From positions 1-6,957 of the forward strand of contig JABWCP010000051.1 of assembly GCA_013360215.1 (NCBI GenBank): a stretch of DNA of 6,957 bases. The letters are read 5' to 3'. This DNA is from a bacterium. Lineage in GTDB: Bacteria; CLD3; SB21. A program made the translations under genes and the position numbers. The notes beneath the pieces are model-generated. The model did no database searches. It worked only from the letters and a program-made list of their open reading frames with translations, and was not told the origin of the DNA. Positions 1 to 6,957 of this stretch are shown in pieces. How positions within the stretch are numbered: the first letter of the stretch is position 1; each line of letters opens with the position of its first letter.

Positions 1-87
1 TCGTATCGTATCCGCTCCGCTATGGGACTCCGCATACGTCACCGCATCACGCAGTGAACCGGCACCGGCATCGTTGGTATTGATGAC
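1..87 (-). repeat. Start of module 3 (truncated by the window edge)
   Basis: Residues 2144-2172 read VINTNDAGAGSLRDAVTYAE then SHSGADTIR. This is a third copy of the entry motif found at 619 and 1317, and the closest of the three to the family consensus. It shows that at least one more beta-helix module lies beyond the left edge. Confidence 0.88.
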
Positions 88-3000
88 TAATAGCGGATCG
101 ATAAACGGCGCAGAAAATCCCGACGTCTGTTCATTATATTCCTGAATCGCTGTATAGCGTGTACCTCCGACAGGTGTTACGTTGGCGGTCCAGTTACCGG
201 AGCCATCCGCACGAACCGTATCTAAGAAATATTCACCTTGATCGGCAGAATCGGCGTAAACGTACACTAGCGCATTACTGTTTGCCGTACCGGCAACTAT
301 TCCTCCATACGTCCCCAATGTAATCGTAGGAGGATTTATACCCTGCTGCGCACCACCGCTGATATCAATACCGCCGCCGACGTTTTTATAAATAAAATTG
401 TCGACAAGCAAATTACTGTCAGTTTGTGCACCTTGAATAGTAATACCAAAGTTTCCGTTGTATGCAATGTGATTTGAATCAATTAGATTATTAGATGGAT
501 AAGAAAATCCATTATCGATAAGTACGATACCGTTCTGCGAATTGCCGATTGGGCCATATTGCATACCGATATTGTTACTAAAGATAGTATTGCCAAATGA
601 CAACTCTTCAATACGAATGCCATCGCCTGTATTTCCGGTTATCGAATTTCCTTCGACCCAAGCATTGGAATGATTAAAAAGTACAACACCGGCAGTGCCA
701 TTAGCGCGTTGAATCGTGCCTGTAACGTCAAGACCAATACTGTTTGCTTGAATTTTCACTTTACGACCATATACAACCTGAATTCCAGTAAATGAATTTC
801 CTGAAATATAATTACTCGTTATTTCAGTGCTATCTGATACGGTATAGATACCATATCCTGTATTTCCGATAGCGTTGTCACCATTGACATCAAGACCAAC
901 GAAATTGCCTGCGATACGTGTTCGACTAAAATTATAAATACCATGACCTGAATTACCGGAAATAACATTGCGCCCTCCGACAGAACCGTCACCGATTTCA
1001 TTATCCACTCCATCCTGAATGGAAATACCGGCGTTAGAATTCGGAACAGCTGTCGTACCTGCGAGATCAAGCCCGATCAAATTGCTGCGTACTAAGTTAC
1101 TATCCGTGCCAACATCTTCTATGGATATACCGAAATTGCTATTGCCGGAAATAATGTTTCTACCTGAGACCGTTGCGTTCCCGATATTAGCGTGCGTTGT
1201 TCCGTTGTTTAACCGGACACCAAAGCTGTTGCCTACGGCTGCGTTTCCAGACGCGTTGACACCAATATAGTTTTGCAATACTAGTGTGGAATCGGCGTCG
1301 CTCAACACGATACCACCGTCAGGATTACCCGATATGATATTGGCCTCAGCCGGAGCCGACAAACCAATTTGATTTTTTATACTTCCGCTTATGTAAACAC
1401 CGCTTCCAATACCCAGTGCCGTGGTACCGTCTGCACCGACACCGATATAGTTACCGGCAATGAGATTAAAATTGGAATTATTTGTAATAAGTACATGCGA
1501 AGCCATATCAGCGCCGCTACCACCGGCACCCATCACATTGCGCCCACCTGCGGTACCGTCTCCGATGATATTGTGATTGGATTGATTATCCAGCGTAATA
1601 CTTGAACCCCCACCGCCGCCGGATTGGTTGGCCAAAGCCATATTACCATAGACATCCACACCAAGGTAATTGCCTAAGATTGCATTATATGTTGCACTAT
1701 CGAGATAAATCCCTGCGCCGTTAAGATTAGCTTGCGAATTATCGACAATCACATTTCCGGAGCCAACCGCTGTACCGCCGATCGTATTGGCGTGAGCACG
1801 TAATAAGTGAATTCCGTATCCTTGATTGCCGAGTGCCCCGGTTCCGAGAGAATCCAAGCCGATAAAGTTGCCGGTCACGATGTTACTATCTGATTCGACA
1901 CGAATACCATTCCGACCGTTGCCGGAAATAACGTTATATGATCCGCCGACACCGCCGATACGATTGTATCGTGCTTGATTGCGTATCATAACACCGTCCG
2001 AACTGTTGCCTGATTCCGTAATACCGTCGGCCGTACCGATGAAATTACCATAAACGATATTCGAGTCCGTCCCGAGCCCCTCAATCAGAATACCGAATCC
2101 TGTAAACGCGTCCGTATTGTTATAAATATAATTTCGACCTGCGATGGTGCCATCACCGATACGGTTATGGTGCGCGCCATTGAAAATATTAACACCATCA
2201 TTATTATTATATATTCGGCAACCGACGATAAGGTTGTATGCGCCTCCGTTAATATCAATACCGCTCGCCATCGAACCAAAACCGGTAATATTCAAATTAC
2301 GAATTTCGTTGTAATTCGAATTAATCGTCAAACCGATAGGTACATTAAACGGGGCACCGTTTAATGTGATATCCGGTAAACCATTCATATCAATATCACC
2401 GTCAATCACTGTCGAATCATCTGTGATATCGGGCAGCATTGTAGCAGGAAAAATAGTTTGCCCCACCATCGGTACATCAAAACGAATGGTATCAGGCCCG
2501 GCATGCGAATTGGCATAGTTGATTGCAAAACGCAAACTTCCCGTGCCGGAATTATTGTTATTGGCAACGAGTGTCGGATCCGTTAAGCCAAACGGCCATG
2601 TATTAACGGCAAAACCGGACGTGTTACCGGCACTATCTTGTGTAGCCGTTATGTTATAGCCAAAATAATTACGTAAGGCCAGGCGAACATCACCAAGATA
2701 ACCGCCCGATGCATCGGCAAATCCTGTAATCAAAGGGATTTCACCCTGAGATCCGGCATCCGCAAAAACTTGAATGTATGCACCCGGGGCCGCCTGTATT
2801 GCAATCGTCGAATCTTCAAACATGGCCTCAATACGCGGCGGTGCAACGCCACCCTGCGATCCAGAAACGTAATTGATACCACCCAAAGTATTGGCAAATA
2901 AGACATTCTGATCCAATTGATTACTATCCGCATCACTGGCTCCGTCCGCTTCGACGCCATAAAAACCGTTGTGTGCGATGATATTTGCGTTAAAATAATT

Positions 3001-6000
3001 ACCGGTGGTATTAAAAGAAGGGATCGAATAAAGGCTGATACCATTTTGTCCGTTACCTCGGATCAGGGATCCGTCAGCTCCGACTCCGATGTAATTATTG
3101 CGAATCAAATTATTTTCTGCCTTGGCAGCCGTAGCAATGATACGTATACCATGGCCCGCGTTCGAAGAAATAATATTACGACCGGAGGCCGCTCCGTTTC
3201 CTATGAAATTAGCGCTGGACTGCTGGAGTATTATCCCGGTACCTCCGTTGGCAAACGTAGCCACTCCTGCCGTTCCGAGACCAATAACATTCTTATATAT
3301 TTCATTGGAATCCGAAGATGAAAAAATCAAACCGTCGTTGGTATTTCCCGAAATGGTATTACCCAGCGATTCGCCTATTTTATTATACTTCGAAGAAGAC
3401 ATAAAAATACCGGCGCTGTTGGGACGCACAAGATTTCCAGCCGCATTCAAACCGATAATATTGTTATCTACAATACGGTACATACCACCGGTAATATACA
3501 TGCCCTCGCTGTTGTTTGAAGCCACCACGTTATCTCGTACGATGGTATATTCGTCGTTCGTCAACGATACACCATAGCTTTGATTACCAAGCGCTGTGTT
3601 CCCATTGGCGCCGAGGCCGATATAGTTTCCGGTAATGCGAACACTGTCGCCACCGCTAACTCCGACACCGAACGTGGTATTATCGGAAATCACATTACGC
3701 CCGCCAATCGTGCCATCGCCTATCCATATATTATTGGATGTGGACACGGAAACGCCCGCGTTGTTTCCCAACGACGCATTGCCGGTCACATCAGTTCCTA
3801 TATAATTACCTAAAACCCATATTGAATCCGTGTTGGTTATCTGAATACCAAAACTCAGATTACCGGAAATCAGGTTTCCACCAGGCACTGTACCGTCGCC
3901 GATGTGATGGAATCTTGAGTTTGGCCCAATAGAAATACCATTACTACCTCCGAGTCCGTTGAGTCCATCTTTGTCGGTACCTATCTTGTTCCCGATAATG
4001 GTAAACCCATTGATAGGAAAGGAAAATGCACTATTAAGTTGGATAGCGTTGGTATTACCGTTAATCACATTATTCTTGATCGTCCAGCCTTGTTGAGTAA
4101 TACGATAAGTAACATAAATGCCGTTGCCTGGACGCAATGCGACAGTGCCCGAAGCATTCGTACCGATCAGATTATCTAAAATCATCGTCGTATCCACCGT
4201 AGCATCGGAACCACCGTAAATACCCGTTCCACCGCCCGCGATAACATTACGGAACACTTTGTTATCTTCCGCCGTCAACGTGATCCCTTGCGCATTCGCA
4301 CTGATAAGCCCGAAATGGTTATACTGAATCGTTGTGAACGGCGCATCACTTATGATTCCATTGGAAGTAAATCCGTCTATATGAAATCCCTGTATGGTGA
4401 CACGAAGCGCCGTCGCGGACAAATTAAAACCATTAGAAGTACTTCCCTGCCCGTCTAAAAATATATTGGGCAAACTATCATTATTAATATCGGCATTGAT
4501 AAACGTAGAGTCGTCTGTCAACATTGGAAGAGCCGATGCAAGTGAGATGGTAGCTCCATCAATATTAGTTGCAAAACGAATCGTATCGGCACCCGGATTA
4601 GCATTGGCAAAATTGATAGCCGATCGTAACGTACCAACGCCATTGTCAAGAATCGACGTAACAAGCAGCGGCATGGCACCCGACGCGGTAAACGTCGGAC
4701 CGTTAATCAACGTACCGTCATTATCACCGGCCGTAACATCGTATGTCGTCGTACCACTGGATTCATCAAAGTGCCAAAGCCCGGCAAGGCCTGCTTCATC
4801 ACCACGAAGAGGTTTGTGCATATCCGCCACAATTTCCGATTGTGTGCGTGCCACATTCCACACTCGCACTTCGTCAATTTCTCCATTCCAAGCACGACCG
4901 GGAAAACTATAATTATTTCCGATCCAAATCGGCGCATCCGATAAATCAATCGGACCCGAAGCGCCTGAAATACCATCCAATTCACCATCCACATAAAGAC
5001 GCAGTTCGGAATTTCCTATATCGTACACCCCTGCTACGTGATGCCATAACCCATCGGCAACATCTTTGGAGCCACTGACGTTACCGGGGCCTGACGCAGC
5101 AAAATACAATGCGTTTGTCGCGTTATTACGCGTCAAGCGATACGTATTATCACCTTTGGTGACAATCGCTTGCCACACTTGATCAAAGCTATTGACACGA
5201 ATCCAAGCTTCCAGCGTTACTGAATTTGTAAAATCAAAAGCCGCTTCGTTGGCGATTTCCACATACGAGCTACCATTGAAAACAAGCGAATTTCCGGCAC
5301 CGGCCGCTGGAATTGCAACATCTTGGTTGGAGTAAGCACCTTGTGCCGTTCCGGCATTTACGGCGGCTACGCGGTAATACTGAAATGTTCCGTTAGCAAC
5401 GGTTATCGTTTTCGAGGTATCAGAGATACCTCCTGTAGTCGAATCAATTTGGGCTGTCGGATTGGGCGCGGGGCCTGCAAAAATACGATATTTGATAATA
5501 TCATCTTCCGCACCCTTTCTCCATTTCAGAACAATGCTGTTATTTTGTCCCATCGCAAAGAAACCGGATGGTGCAGTCGGAGGATGATTTCGAAGATCCA
5601 AAGCTATTCCGCGACCTTCGTTGGGCAATGTCAAGAGTAGCTCATCTCCGCTTCCGTCCAAATTAATTCGGCGGATTTGTTTAGTTGAAAGGCCTGTAGC
5701 GTAGTACAACTTATCGGCAATGGTATCAATAGCTAAAACATTTTGATCAAATCCGGAATTAGTTGAAATTACCGTAGGGGATCCACCACTCATGGGCGCG
5801 TTTTTGATTTGATCGAAATTTTGATTTCCCCAATAAATTTTCTGTGTTCTAGCATCTAAAACAAGCCCCCAAACAAATGTTTCAGTATACAAATTTTGTT
5901 GCGAAGTACCGTCTAAATTAGCCCGACGAATATTCGTATTGTCGGAATAGTATATTTTGCCACCTGCAACATCCACAGCCAAACCTGTCGGAGAAGATAA

Positions 6001-6516
6001 ACCGCTGACAAGTGTTTCCATCCCGGTTCCGTCAAAATTACCTCTATGGACAGTACCGCCAAACCAAGACGTCCAGTAGATTTTCTGAGCCGCAATATCT
6101 AACCCTAAACCACGCGCCCCACTTGATGAAAACAACAATTCATCGCCACTCCCATCGAGATTCGCCCGGCGAACTTGTCCGCCGCCGTACAGTGTGTAGT
6201 ACATTTTACCACCGGCAATATCCAGTGCTATACTCCAAGGCTGTACAAGGCCGGAATGTACCGTTTGACCACTACTTCCATCAAGTTTAGCTTTGATTAC
6301 CGGCGAAGGATTCGTGTTCTGGGCGTAATACATTCTTGGGCCACTAATCGTCTGCGAATATGACTTCGGAACTGTCACTAACCCAAGAAGCCAAAAGCAG
6401 AGGATCCAAGAAACTGCAAATGTAGCAATTTGTTGGGTTACCTTATTCACAAAAATGAATGTTTTTTCGTTGGATAAAAAAGTAAAATTACCTGAGGCTT
6501 GTAAAACTCTTCCCAT
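1..6516 (-). CDS. Giant secreted multidomain beta-helix repeat protein (3' end outside window)
   Basis: The frame stays open for 2172 codons from ATG 6516-6514 to base 1, with coherent domain sequence throughout and no frameshift. Domains by residue: signal peptide 1-54, six-bladed YWTD propeller about 60-310, FnIII about 313-402, LamG about 407-612, beta-helix/Ig module 1 at 619-1306, module 2 at 1317-2137, and the start of module 3 from 2144. The ATG was chosen because GGAG lies six bases upstream and an in-frame stop (6559-6561) precedes it with no other ATG between. The mature part is rich in Asn, Gly, Ile and Thr and has one Cys (C1433), as expected of an exported beta-solenoid. Such families act at the cell surface or outside the cell in adhesion or as structural scaffolds. 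No catalytic motif is seen, so the role is inferred. The C-terminus, where a sorting or anchoring domain would be expected, is not visible. Confidence 0.95.
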   Translation of the reverse strand, partial: MGRVLQASGNFTFLSNEKTFIFVNKVTQQIATFAVSWILCFWLLGLVTVPKSYSQTISGPRMYYAQNTNPSPVIKAKLDGSSGQTVHSGLVQPWSIALDIAGGKMYYTLYGGGQVRRANLDGSGDELLFSSSGARGLGLDIAAQKIYWTSWFGGTVHRGNFDGTGMETLVSGLSSPTGLAVDVAGGKIYYSDNTNIRRANLDGTSQQNLYTETFVWGLVLDARTQKIYWGNQNFDQIKNAPMSGGSPTVISTNSGFDQNVLAIDTIADKLYYATGLSTKQIRRINLDGSGDELLLTLPNEGRGIALDLRNHPPTAPSGFFAMGQNNSIVLKWRKGAEDDIIKYRIFAGPAPNPTAQIDSTTGGISDTSKTITVANGTFQYYRVAAVNAGTAQGAYSNQDVAIPAAGAGNSLVFNGSSYVEIANEAAFDFTNSVTLEAWIRVNSFDQVWQAIVTKGDNTYRLTRNNATNALYFAASGPGNVSGSKDVADGLWHHVAGVYDIGNSELRLYVDGELDGISGASGPIDLSDAPIWIGNNYSFPGRAWNGEIDEVRVWNVARTQSEIVADMHKPLRGDEAGLAGLWHFDESSGTTTYDVTAGDNDGTLINGPTFTASGAMPLLVTSILDNGVGTLRSAINFANANPGADTIRFATNIDGATISLASALPMLTDDSTFINADINNDSLPNIFLDGQGSTSNGFNLSATALRVTIQGFHIDGFTSNGIISDAPFTTIQYNHFGLISANAQGITLTAEDNKVFRNVIAGGGTGIYGGSDATVDTTMILDNLIGTNASGTVALRPGNGIYVTYRITQQGWTIKNNVINGNTNAIQLNSAFSFPINGFTIIGNKIGTDKDGLNGLGGSNGISIGPNSRFHHIGDGTVPGGNLISGNLSFGIQITNTDSIWVLGNYIGTDVTGNASLGNNAGVSVSTSNNIWIGDGTIGGRNVISDNTTFGVGVSGGDSVRITGNYIGLGANGNTALGNQSYGVSLTNDEYTIVRDNVVASNNSEGMYITGGMYRIVDNNIIGLNAAGNLVRPNSAGIFMSSSKYNKIGESLGNTISGNTNDGLIFSSSDSNEIYKNVIGLGTAGVATFANGGTGIILQQSSANFIGNGAASGRNIISSNAGHGIRIIATAAKAENNLIRNNYIGVGADGSLIRGNGQNGISLYSIPSFNTTGNYFNANIIAHNGFYGVEADGASDADSNQLDQNVLFANTLGGINYVSGSQGGVAPPRIEAMFEDSTIAIQAAPGAYIQVFADAGSQGEIPLITGFADASGGYLGDVRLALRNYFGYNITATQDSAGNTSGFAVNTWPFGLTDPTLVANNNNSGTGSLRFAINYANSHAGPDTIRFDVPMVGQTIFPATMLPDITDDSTVIDGDIDMNGLPDITLNGAPFNVPIGLTINSNYNEIRNLNITGFGSMASGIDINGGAYNLIVGCRIYNNNDGVNIFNGAHHNRIGDGTIAGRNYIYNNTDAFTGFGILIEGLGTDSNIVYGNFIGTADGITESGNSSDGVMIRNQARYNRIGGVGGSYNVISGNGRNGIRVESDSNIVTGNFIGLDSLGTGALGNQGYGIHLLRAHANTIGGTAVGSGNVIVDNSQANLNGAGIYLDSATYNAILGNYLGVDVYGNMALANQSGGGGGSSITLDNQSNHNIIGDGTAGGRNVMGAGGSGADMASHVLITNNSNFNLIAGNYIGVGADGTTALGIGSGVYISGSIKNQIGLSAPAEANIISGNPDGGIVLSDADSTLVLQNYIGVNASGNAAVGNSFGVRLNNGTTHANIGNATVSGRNIISGNSNFGISIEDVGTDSNLVRSNLIGLDLAGTTAVPNSNAGISIQDGVDNEIGDGSVGGRNVISGNSGHGIYNFSRTRIAGNFVGLDVNGDNAIGNTGYGIYTVSDSTEITSNYISGNSFTGIQVVYGRKVKIQANSIGLDVTGTIQRANGTAGVVLFNHSNAWVEGNSITGNTGDGIRIEELSFGNTIFSNNIGMQYGPIGNSQNGIVLIDNGFSYPSNNLIDSNHIAYNGNFGITIQGAQTDSNLLVDNFIYKNVGGGIDISGGAQQGINPPTITLGTYGGIVAGTANSNALVYVYADSADQGEYFLDTVRADGSGNWTANVTPVGGTRYTAIQEYNEQTSGFSAPFIDPLLVINTNDAGAGSLRDAVTYAESHSGADTIR
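106..336 (-). other. Ig-like beta domain closing module 2
   Basis: Residues 2061-2137 read NPPTITLG, then 'VAGTANSNALVYVYADSADQ', 'VRADGSGNWTANV' and 'YTAIQEYNEQTSGFSAP'. The layout matches the domain at 1226-1306 and is closer to the family consensus ('GTAxxNAxVxVYADSxxQGE', 'DGSGNW', 'QTSxFS'). It sits just before the third entry motif, so the order helix, Ig-like domain, next helix is a true repeating unit. Confidence 0.78.
343..2568 (-). repeat. Module 2: longer right-handed parallel beta-helix
   Basis: Residues 1317-2058 repeat the plan of module 1. The entry motif is VANNNNSGTGSLRFAINYAN, followed by GPDTIRF. Nine N-x-(I/V/L)-G units start at residues 1491, 1550, 1616, 1689, 1749, 1812, 1871, 1925 and 1981, spaced 59, 66, 73, 60, 63, 59, 54 and 56. 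Alternating 'IGDGTxxGRNxISGN' strands are clear, for example before units 1491, 1749 and 1871. The longest spacing (1616 to 1689) holds a Gly-5 run at 1633-1637. The module is about 130 residues longer than module 1 (827 versus 698 residues, entry motif to entry motif), mostly through two more repeat units. It contains C1433, the only Cys of the mature protein. Confidence 0.88.
2599..2841 (-). other. Ig-like beta domain closing module 1
   Basis: Residues 1226-1306 open with PPRIEAMF and continue with 'APGAYIQVFADAGSQGE', 'ADASGGYLGDVRL' and 'NITATQDSAGNTSGFA'. This is the usual pattern of small bacterial Ig-like domains of about 80 residues that follow beta-helix modules: 'xVxVFADxxxQGE ... 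A(D/N)xxGxW ... ITATxxDxxGNTSxFS'. The equivalent domain closes module 2. It is probably a linker or cap between solenoids. Confidence 0.75.
2851..4662 (-). repeat. Module 1: right-handed parallel beta-helix, about 60-residue repeats
   Basis: Residues 619-1222 begin with the entry motif VTSILDNGVGTLRSAINFAN and GADTIRF, typical of CSLREA-like beta-helix modules. Seven 'N-x-I-G' units follow at residues 782, 843, 904, 964, 1019, 1076 and 1141, spaced 61, 61, 60, 55, 57 and 65 residues, or about three solenoid turns each. Between them lie 'IGDGT-GGRNVISDN'-type strands and 'GIxI' turns. The DNA copies differ widely in codon choice, so these are old duplications rather than a recent tandem expansion. 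The fold assignment (PbH1-type repeats) rests on motif pattern alone. Confidence 0.88.
4681..5298 (-). other. LamG / concanavalin A-like jelly-roll domain
   Basis: Residues about 407-612 match the bacterial LamG-like fold (LamGL or Laminin_G_3 type). Visible signatures, in order: 'NSLVFNGSSYVEI' (409 onward), 'VTLEAWIRV', 'WHHVAGVYD' (491-499), 'LYVDGELDG' (around 507-515), 'IWIGNN', 'GEIDEVRVWNVART' (545 onward) and 'GLAGLWHFDESSGTT'. This order is characteristic and complete, and about 205 residues is a normal length. The fold usually binds carbohydrate or protein and often Ca2+; no specific ligand can be assigned. Confidence 0.9.
5311..5580 (-). other. Fibronectin type III domain
   Basis: Residues about 313-402 follow the propeller directly. 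They show the FnIII pattern: an N-terminal PTAPSGF, strand B 'SIVLKWRKG' with the conserved Trp (W332), strand C 'KYRIF' with the conserved Tyr (Y343), and a late strand 'YYRVAAVNAGTAQGAYSN' with the Tyr-x-x-V-x-A-V-N signature (380 onward). The length, about 90 residues, is normal. It probably acts as a spacer between the propeller and the LamG domain. Confidence 0.85.
5587..6339 (-). other. LDLR-class (YWTD/LY) six-bladed beta-propeller
   Basis: Residues about 60-310 contain six repeats of roughly 40 residues. Each has a YWTD-like strand: RMYY (61-64), KMYY (104-107), KIYW (145-148), KIYY (187-190), KIYW (226-229) and KLYY (269-272). Preceding strands read 'LxLD' (for example IALD 96-99, LGLD 137-140, LAVD 179-182). 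The strand 'RRANLDGSGDELL' and its relatives (116-128, 197-209, 282-294) are the classic LY 'R..LDG' motif. The final GIALDL (303-308) probably completes the last blade. In this family the propeller is a protein-binding platform. In bacteria it is common at the N-terminus of secreted proteins, and its ligand cannot be told from sequence. Confidence 0.88.
6355..6516 (-). other. Sec signal peptide with long N-terminal extension
   Basis: Residues 30-49 (IATFAVSWILCFWLLGLVTV) form an uncharged hydrophobic core preceded by K25. The sequence KSYS-QT after it gives small residues at -3 (S52) and -1 (S54), so cleavage by signal peptidase I after S54 is likely. C40 lies inside the core without a lipobox, so this is not a lipoprotein signal. 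The region before the core is about 29 residues, unusually long. A GTG codon at residue 23 (6448-6450) would give a textbook-length signal peptide starting M-N-K, but no clear ribosome binding site precedes it. Confidence 0.82.
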
Positions 6517-6522
6517 GAGTTT

Positions 6523-6526
6523 CTCC
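6523..6526 (-). promoter_or_regulatory. Shine-Dalgarno site of the giant CDS
   Basis: On the minus strand the sequence CGGAGAAACTC lies directly before ATG 6516. GGAG with a six-base gap to the start codon is a good ribosome binding site, and it decides the start against the in-frame GTG at residue 23. Confidence 0.75.
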
Positions 6527-6538
6527 GAATTAGTGAAT

Positions 6539-6558
6539 TTATTTTTAATTATTTTTAA
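6539..6558. repeat. Perfect tandem 10-bp AT-rich repeat in the leader
   Basis: TTATTTTTAA occurs twice head to tail (6539-6548 and 6549-6558). In the transcript it is an A-rich, unstructured stretch just upstream of the ribosome binding site. It may help ribosome loading or may simply be low-complexity leader. Confidence 0.7.
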
Positions 6559-6638
6559 TCAGTATTTTTGCGTACATCGCCCGATCAGATCAAACATGTA
6601 TAAAAATTAAACGCTATATTAATAAATAGTTGGGTAGC

Positions 6639-6663
6639 CTTACATGCATGTTCATGTAGTAAG
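6639..6663. promoter_or_regulatory. Imperfect inverted repeat in the leader (possible operator or hairpin)
   Basis: CTTACATG (6639-6646) and CATGTA-g-TAAG (6653-6663) are complementary arms with one unpaired G at 6659 and a six-base spacer. The core TACATG-N6-CATGTA (6641-6658) is perfect. It could be a regulator half-site pair or a leader RNA stem. A further ACATGT palindrome lies nearby at 6594-6599. Function is not known. Confidence 0.5.
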
Positions 6664-6696
6664 TTATCAGTATGCACAATTAAAACACTTCATCGC

Positions 6697-6712
6697 TGTG
6701 ACGAGCATCACA
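6697..6712. promoter_or_regulatory. CRP-family binding site (perfect TGTGA-N6-TCACA)
   Basis: TGTGACGAGCATCACA is an exact match to the symmetric core recognised by cAMP-CRP and close relatives. It lies between the upstream promoter and the ATG, about 33-48 nt downstream of that promoter's expected start. There it could block transcription. It could instead activate a second promoter: a weak -10-like CATACT (minus strand, 6674-6669) lies where a class II promoter would place it, with the CRP centre at about -42. No other gene start is near, so the giant CDS is the likely target. Confidence 0.72.
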
Positions 6713-6751
6713 AAAAATAGATTTTTTAACTAATCGTCAGTTTTTTGACAC

Positions 6752-6780
6752 ATAATACCATAAACGCGGTATGCTGTCAA
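6752..6780 (-). promoter_or_regulatory. Sigma70-type promoter for the giant CDS
   Basis: On the minus strand TTGACA (6780-6775) is followed by exactly 17 bases and then TATTAT (6757-6752). The -35 is perfect, the -10 matches five of six bases, and the spacing is ideal. The expected start near 6745 gives a leader of about 229 nt. A short inverted repeat, ATACC (6755-6759) with GGTAT (6768-6772), overlaps the spacer and the -10. Confidence 0.78.
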
Positions 6781-6808
6781 TCATTTTTATGTAATGTCCC
6801 CAAACGCG

Positions 6809-6835
6809 ACAACCCCGTCTCATCAACGGGGTTGT
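6809..6835 (-). terminator. Probable terminator hairpin of the upstream gene
   Basis: ACAACCCCGT (6809-6818) and ACGGGGTTGT (6826-6835) form a perfect 10-bp GC-rich stem with a seven-base loop. It begins 29 bases after the stop codon of the minus-strand gene to its right and precedes the promoter of the giant CDS, as expected for a terminator. Neither side has a good T-tract directly after the stem, so termination may be weak or factor-assisted. The stem is symmetrical, so strand is inferred from context. Confidence 0.65.
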
Positions 6836-6864
6836 GTGTAGTGGAAAGGTTTTGTGTGAAGCGA

Positions 6865-6957
6865 TCAGTAGAGTTTAGCCAAGGCCTCCAGCTTATTGAG
6901 CAAGAGGGTCGCTATACCGGGCTGATTGGACGCCGCCGTAAAGGATGGATCCAAAGC
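6865..6957 (-). CDS. C-terminal end of an upstream gene, function unknown
   Basis: A minus-strand frame enters from the right edge and ends at TGA 6867-6865, giving 30 residues that start ALDPSFTAASNQPG and end NKLEALAKLY. The tail looks like a short amphipathic helix. A hairpin follows 29 bases later, which supports a true gene end. Thirty residues are too few to name a family. The plus strand is also open here (from a GTG at 6841 to the edge), but it has no ribosome binding site and would begin just after the hairpin, so the minus reading is preferred. With a terminator and a promoter between them, it is probably not in an operon with the giant CDS. Confidence 0.55.
   Translation of the reverse strand, partial: ALDPSFTAASNQPGIATLLLNKLEALAKLY

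Follow-up and report, generated by a model that had tools for sequence, protein, structure and literature searches.

A probably functional CRP-type operator in the leader of a giant secreted-protein gene, within a family-wide set of intergenic sites

Organization of the window

The window, i.e. the whole stretch of DNA analysed here, is the entire contig C51 of 6957 bp from a genome of 3.72 Mb. Positions 1–6516 on the minus strand are taken up by a single open reading frame of at least 2172 amino acids, which extends past the contig end. The N-terminus of its product is a hydrophobic, signal-like segment and the domains present are LamG-like and right-handed beta-helix repeats, suggesting a giant secreted protein. 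Shine-Dalgarno sequence GGAGA lies immediately 5′ of the ATG of this gene. Paralogues and partial homologues of the giant protein are found in the genomes of the family. Window positions 1–99 recur without a difference at the end of contig C27 (locus L143), which carries a paralogous giant gene of 3907 codons; a 3′ module apparently common to both giant genes seems to have broken the assembly.

The 5′ leader (6517–6745, minus strand) comprises approximately 229 nt from the predicted start of promoter P1 to the start codon and contains the operator. No terminator-like site was seen in the leader, and an Rfam search for structured RNA within it gave no match. A search for an orthologue or paralogue of the leader, or for an orthologous N-terminus, that could provide a footprint found none. 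Only this genome has the leader, and therefore conservation gives no footprint for the window site and cannot decide its mode of action.

At its right end (6809–6957, minus strand) the window runs into the edge of a multicopy element; these 149 bp match the end of contig C21, in reversed orientation, at 99.3% identity. The element may be a mobile one that the assembly lost. A stable hairpin (6809–6835; fold −25.2 kcal/mol, z −3.8) is located at the inner edge of the element, and a minus-strand frame within the element terminates with LLLNKLEALAKLY and a stop just before it. The hairpin is terminator-like, yet it has no T tract in the window copy. A divergent plus-strand gene at 6745–6957 was considered and rejected because the region belongs to the repeated element, its putative GTG start is GTA in the C21 copy and the minus-strand frame ends before the hairpin. 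Since the element ends in a hairpin, no promoter-facing gene other than the giant gene was seen, and the giant gene is probably the target of the operator.

The operator and related sites across the family

The operator (6697–6712) reads TGTGACGAGCATCACA on the forward strand and TGTGATGCTCGTCACA on the minus strand. The earlier note had described a perfect CRP-type core at this position, and comparison with TGTGA-N6-TCACA indeed gives zero mismatches, the core being identical to that of the E. coli cAMP-CRP operator. We searched the genome for the pattern and judged the counts against its reversed control. Perfect sites number 12 as compared to 1 for the control and, when one mismatch to TGTGAYNNNNRTCACA is allowed, 36 as compared to 4; the scan for the same palindrome that the earlier note had proposed has thus revealed a clear excess. 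Ten of the 12 perfect sites are intergenic and the remaining 2 lie inside genes, bearing in mind that open reading frames were assigned longest first, by a simple rule, and that individual intergenic or coding assignments may be off. Among all genomes examined, the refined pattern TGTGAY-N4-RTCACA is found in 44 of the 46 perfect sites between genes as compared to 3 of 9 in coding DNA, and the window site, with C at position 6 and A at position 11, satisfies this Y6/R11 preference.

The window site is therefore more than a chance match and is part of a genuine, genome-wide intergenic set. Base composition predicts about 4 perfect sites in 3.72 Mb, which together with the two sites inside genes would be the argument for a match devoid of function. 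However, the expectation for the 292 bp preceding the giant gene, where the leader lies, is only about 0.0003, and intergenic perfect sites are strongly over-represented and nearly all of the Y6/R11 type, so that a functionless match is very improbable. A relic is another possibility to be considered, in which the site is left over from a divergent gene, lost when the repeated element at 6809 took its place, and leaves the giant gene unaffected. The multicopy element edge at the right end of the window and the frequent divergent arrangement of regulon sites are consistent with such a history. However, all ten core bases as well as the Y and R positions are kept, and P1 and the leader flank the site in the direction of the giant gene, which makes a relic very improbable. 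As a member of a genuine set of such sites in the family, the window operator is probably functional.

The enrichment of sites extends across the family. In relatives from two further genera, perfect sites compared to control numbered 8/0 and 9/2, 14/1, 8/2, while one genus of the family is lower (3/1 and 1/0). Orthologous sites are present upstream of the same genes in 5–6 genomes, where the 16-mer is almost fixed and the flanking DNA has diverged. One conserved site, present in 6 genomes, is shared by an isoprenylcysteine-methyltransferase-like gene and a divergent secreted-protein gene; another, present in 5 genomes, belongs to a sigma-factor-like gene, mostly with a divergent zinc-type dehydrogenase. 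At loci L057, L059 and L134, 30 nt separate the site from the methyltransferase-like gene and approximately 105 nt from the divergent secreted-protein gene, with the exact class II spacing for the latter. Genes for outer-membrane-like and lipoprotein-like proteins are recurrent targets in several genomes. Several targets in the window genome look secreted or envelope-bound, including MsrA and MsrB; msrB and msrA (L005 and L006, position 1501) have lipoprotein-like starts and a perfect site upstream of each. A further perfect site (L011, position 1501) is located between an Rrf2-like/iron-sulfur-repair-like gene pair and a large secreted-protein gene. Upstream regions of the other giant-protein genes were examined and contain no convincing CRP site. 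In relative G003 (L138, position 4351) a CRP-like site with one mismatch lies between a giant gene of 6354 codons and a divergent membrane-protein gene, and it may serve the divergent gene rather than the giant one.

The spacing between the sites and the promoter elements downstream of them shows a distinct preference. Across the family, the 16-mer is followed by TAnnnT at a spacing of exactly 21 nt in 18 of 61 promoter-facing sites, most other spacings having 0–5 and typically about 1–2. A −10 element at 21 nt places the centre of the site at −41.5, which is the class II position. The peak at 20–22 nt persists once related promoters are grouped, by a crude grouping in which some unrelated promoters were merged. 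Class II activation, as predicted from this spacing, is the commonest and best-supported layout across the regulon. Whether a GC pair next to the site marks class II orientation was also considered, and the idea was dropped because the pair follows orthology groups.

Candidate regulators and their signal

CRP-type regulators are common bacterial sensors of carbon and energy state. Three CRP/FNR proteins above the HTH_Crp_2 cut-off are present in the genome. The one encoded on contig C1 is a CRP orthologue which keeps equivalents of the E. coli DNA-contact triad R180/E181/R185 and of the cAMP-pocket residues G71, E72, R82 and S83, with T127 replaced by S; the residue numbering is based on the E. 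coli CRP sequence, with the key residues checked computationally. It differs from E. coli CRP in having D at the position of S128 and in its AR2/AR3 residues. Its score against the CRP equivalog PRK11753 is 107 bits, which is below the cut-off of 266 and is that of a CRP/FNR-superfamily member; ‘CRP-type’ is therefore the right wording. A C1-type CRP with the same triad and the same four pocket residues is present in all 8 relatives searched. A CRP-family regulator with a matching recognition helix (R-E-x3-R), whose absence would by the earlier note have refuted its idea, is hence present in the genome.

Class III cyclase domains were found in all 7 family genomes searched and we infer that these enzymes make cAMP. 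Together with the cAMP-pocket residues of the C1 protein, they suggest a tie of the site to carbon or energy state. On the basis of the conserved contact residues, binding of the C1 orthologue to the window site appears likely.

A different regulator might use the site for a redox or nitrosative signal, one candidate being the CRP/FNR-type protein encoded on contig C3. Its helix, TSREVVSRLL, also contains R-E-x3-R, most of its pocket residues are missing and its gene adjoins bacilliredoxin-like, DtxR-like and FeoA-like genes. The perfect sites adjoining msrA, msrB and the Rrf2-like/iron-sulfur-repair-like pair in the window genome would fit such a signal. However, among the relatives that have both the motif enrichment and the orthologous sites, every genome contains the C1-type CRP and none was seen to contain a C3-type protein, and regulation by the C3 protein or another such regulator is accordingly improbable.

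Promoters P1 and P2 and the predicted mode of action

Promoter P1 (6752–6780, minus strand) consists of TTGACA at 6780–6775 and TATTAT at 6757–6752 separated by 17 bp, with a predicted start at about 6745. It matches the consensus at 11 of 12 positions and has an upstream TG. In the lineage, TTGACA-N16-18-TAnnnT occurs 31 times in 71 kb of intergenic DNA as compared to 30 times in 483 kb of coding DNA, and this enrichment suggests that the consensus of P1 is used. The strong promoter that the earlier note had placed upstream of the operator is borne out by these features and faces the giant gene. The operator spans approximately +33 to +48 relative to the predicted P1 start, with its centre at about +40.5, and so lies downstream of a strong start as a roadblock would.

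The earlier note had also suggested a second promoter about 42 bases beyond the operator. The candidate −10 element of this putative P2, CATACT (6669–6674, minus strand), is 22 nt after the operator and would give a start at about 6662. The operator centre would then be at about −42.5, near the family layout of −41.5. The class II-like spacing thus stands but the promoter itself is poor. The element matches at 4 of 6 positions, a quality that approximately 5–22% of 3-bp windows placed arbitrarily downstream of such sites reach by chance; it is the best fit in the region, no TAnnnT being present at 20–22 nt. When compared with 7 conserved class II promoters as references, the P2 region shows no significant resemblance to 6 of them. 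With P2 weak and P1 far stronger, P1 is the better-supported promoter. Overall, the earlier interpretation holds for a real operator, a matching regulator and a strong upstream promoter and falls short at the second promoter.

The window could in principle follow the prevailing family layout, with P2 as the main regulated promoter, P1 minor or unused and CRP turning the giant gene on. The preference for TAnnnT at 21 nt among family sites argues for such pure class II activation, as do cyanobacterial CRP regulons (PMC2633013), in which the same palindrome is followed by a −10 TAN3T approximately 22 bp downstream, in another lineage and with other targets. However, the window has only the chance-level CATACT at this spacing, P2 does not significantly resemble conserved class II promoters and P1 is far stronger; pure class II activation is therefore unlikely here.

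The explanation that we prefer is a working CRP-type operator which controls the giant gene by blocking P1, perhaps with activation of P2, and we give it an even chance of being correct as a whole. Positions 6697–6712 would be bound by a CRP-type regulator, for which the single C1 orthologue with cAMP as ligand is the most likely candidate. The bound dimer, positioned in the P1 leader, would block the path of RNA polymerase or stand near it, lowering the output of P1. The same dimer is near class II register for the weaker P2 and may switch it on. Obstruction of P1, which would be compatible with activation of P2, is about evenly balanced between being right and wrong, and activation of P2, in turn compatible with obstruction, is somewhat less likely than not. 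Since P1 is strong, obstruction at P1, perhaps together with class II activation of P2, is slightly favoured. A combined effect in the window is plausible because CRP at the E. coli gal operon, bound at −40.5 relative to P1, activates this promoter and represses P2 (PMC4693257). Like gal, the window would have two same-strand promoters and one CRP site favouring one of them while repressing the other. However, the gal starts are 5 bp apart with the CRP site upstream of both (PMC4693257), whereas in the window the starts would be approximately 83 bp apart with the site downstream of the start of the upstream promoter, and P2 is putative. The preferred explanation also has to be set against the best-supported regulon layout, which is class II and not a site within a leader, and against the missing conservation footprint, the other giant genes without a convincing site, the weakness of P2 and the presence of the C3 regulator.

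Binding of CRP at the regulatory regions of the large adhesin genes frhA and craA of Vibrio cholerae is discussed in PMC6890996. Very large surface proteins are concerned in both cases, although the protein architecture and the circuit differ and binding in the window is predicted. In comparison to the E. coli CRP regulon, the target genes here differ, many of them encoding envelope proteins. No regulon has been described for this lineage in the literature searched.

Taken singly, the window site would represent a textbook mechanism, i.e. ordinary regulation in a new place. In the broadest scheme, which we consider unlikely, one cAMP-CRP-type regulon would govern many envelope and secreted proteins, and the window site would trade a strong P1 against a CRP-activated P2, with leader length and giant-protein output tracking cAMP. 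What the analysis offers for the family is a testable CRP regulon whose motif is refined to TGTGAY-N4-RTCACA and in which the class II layout predominates. The results also suggest that the CRP-regulated genes include some that encode secreted and giant surface proteins.
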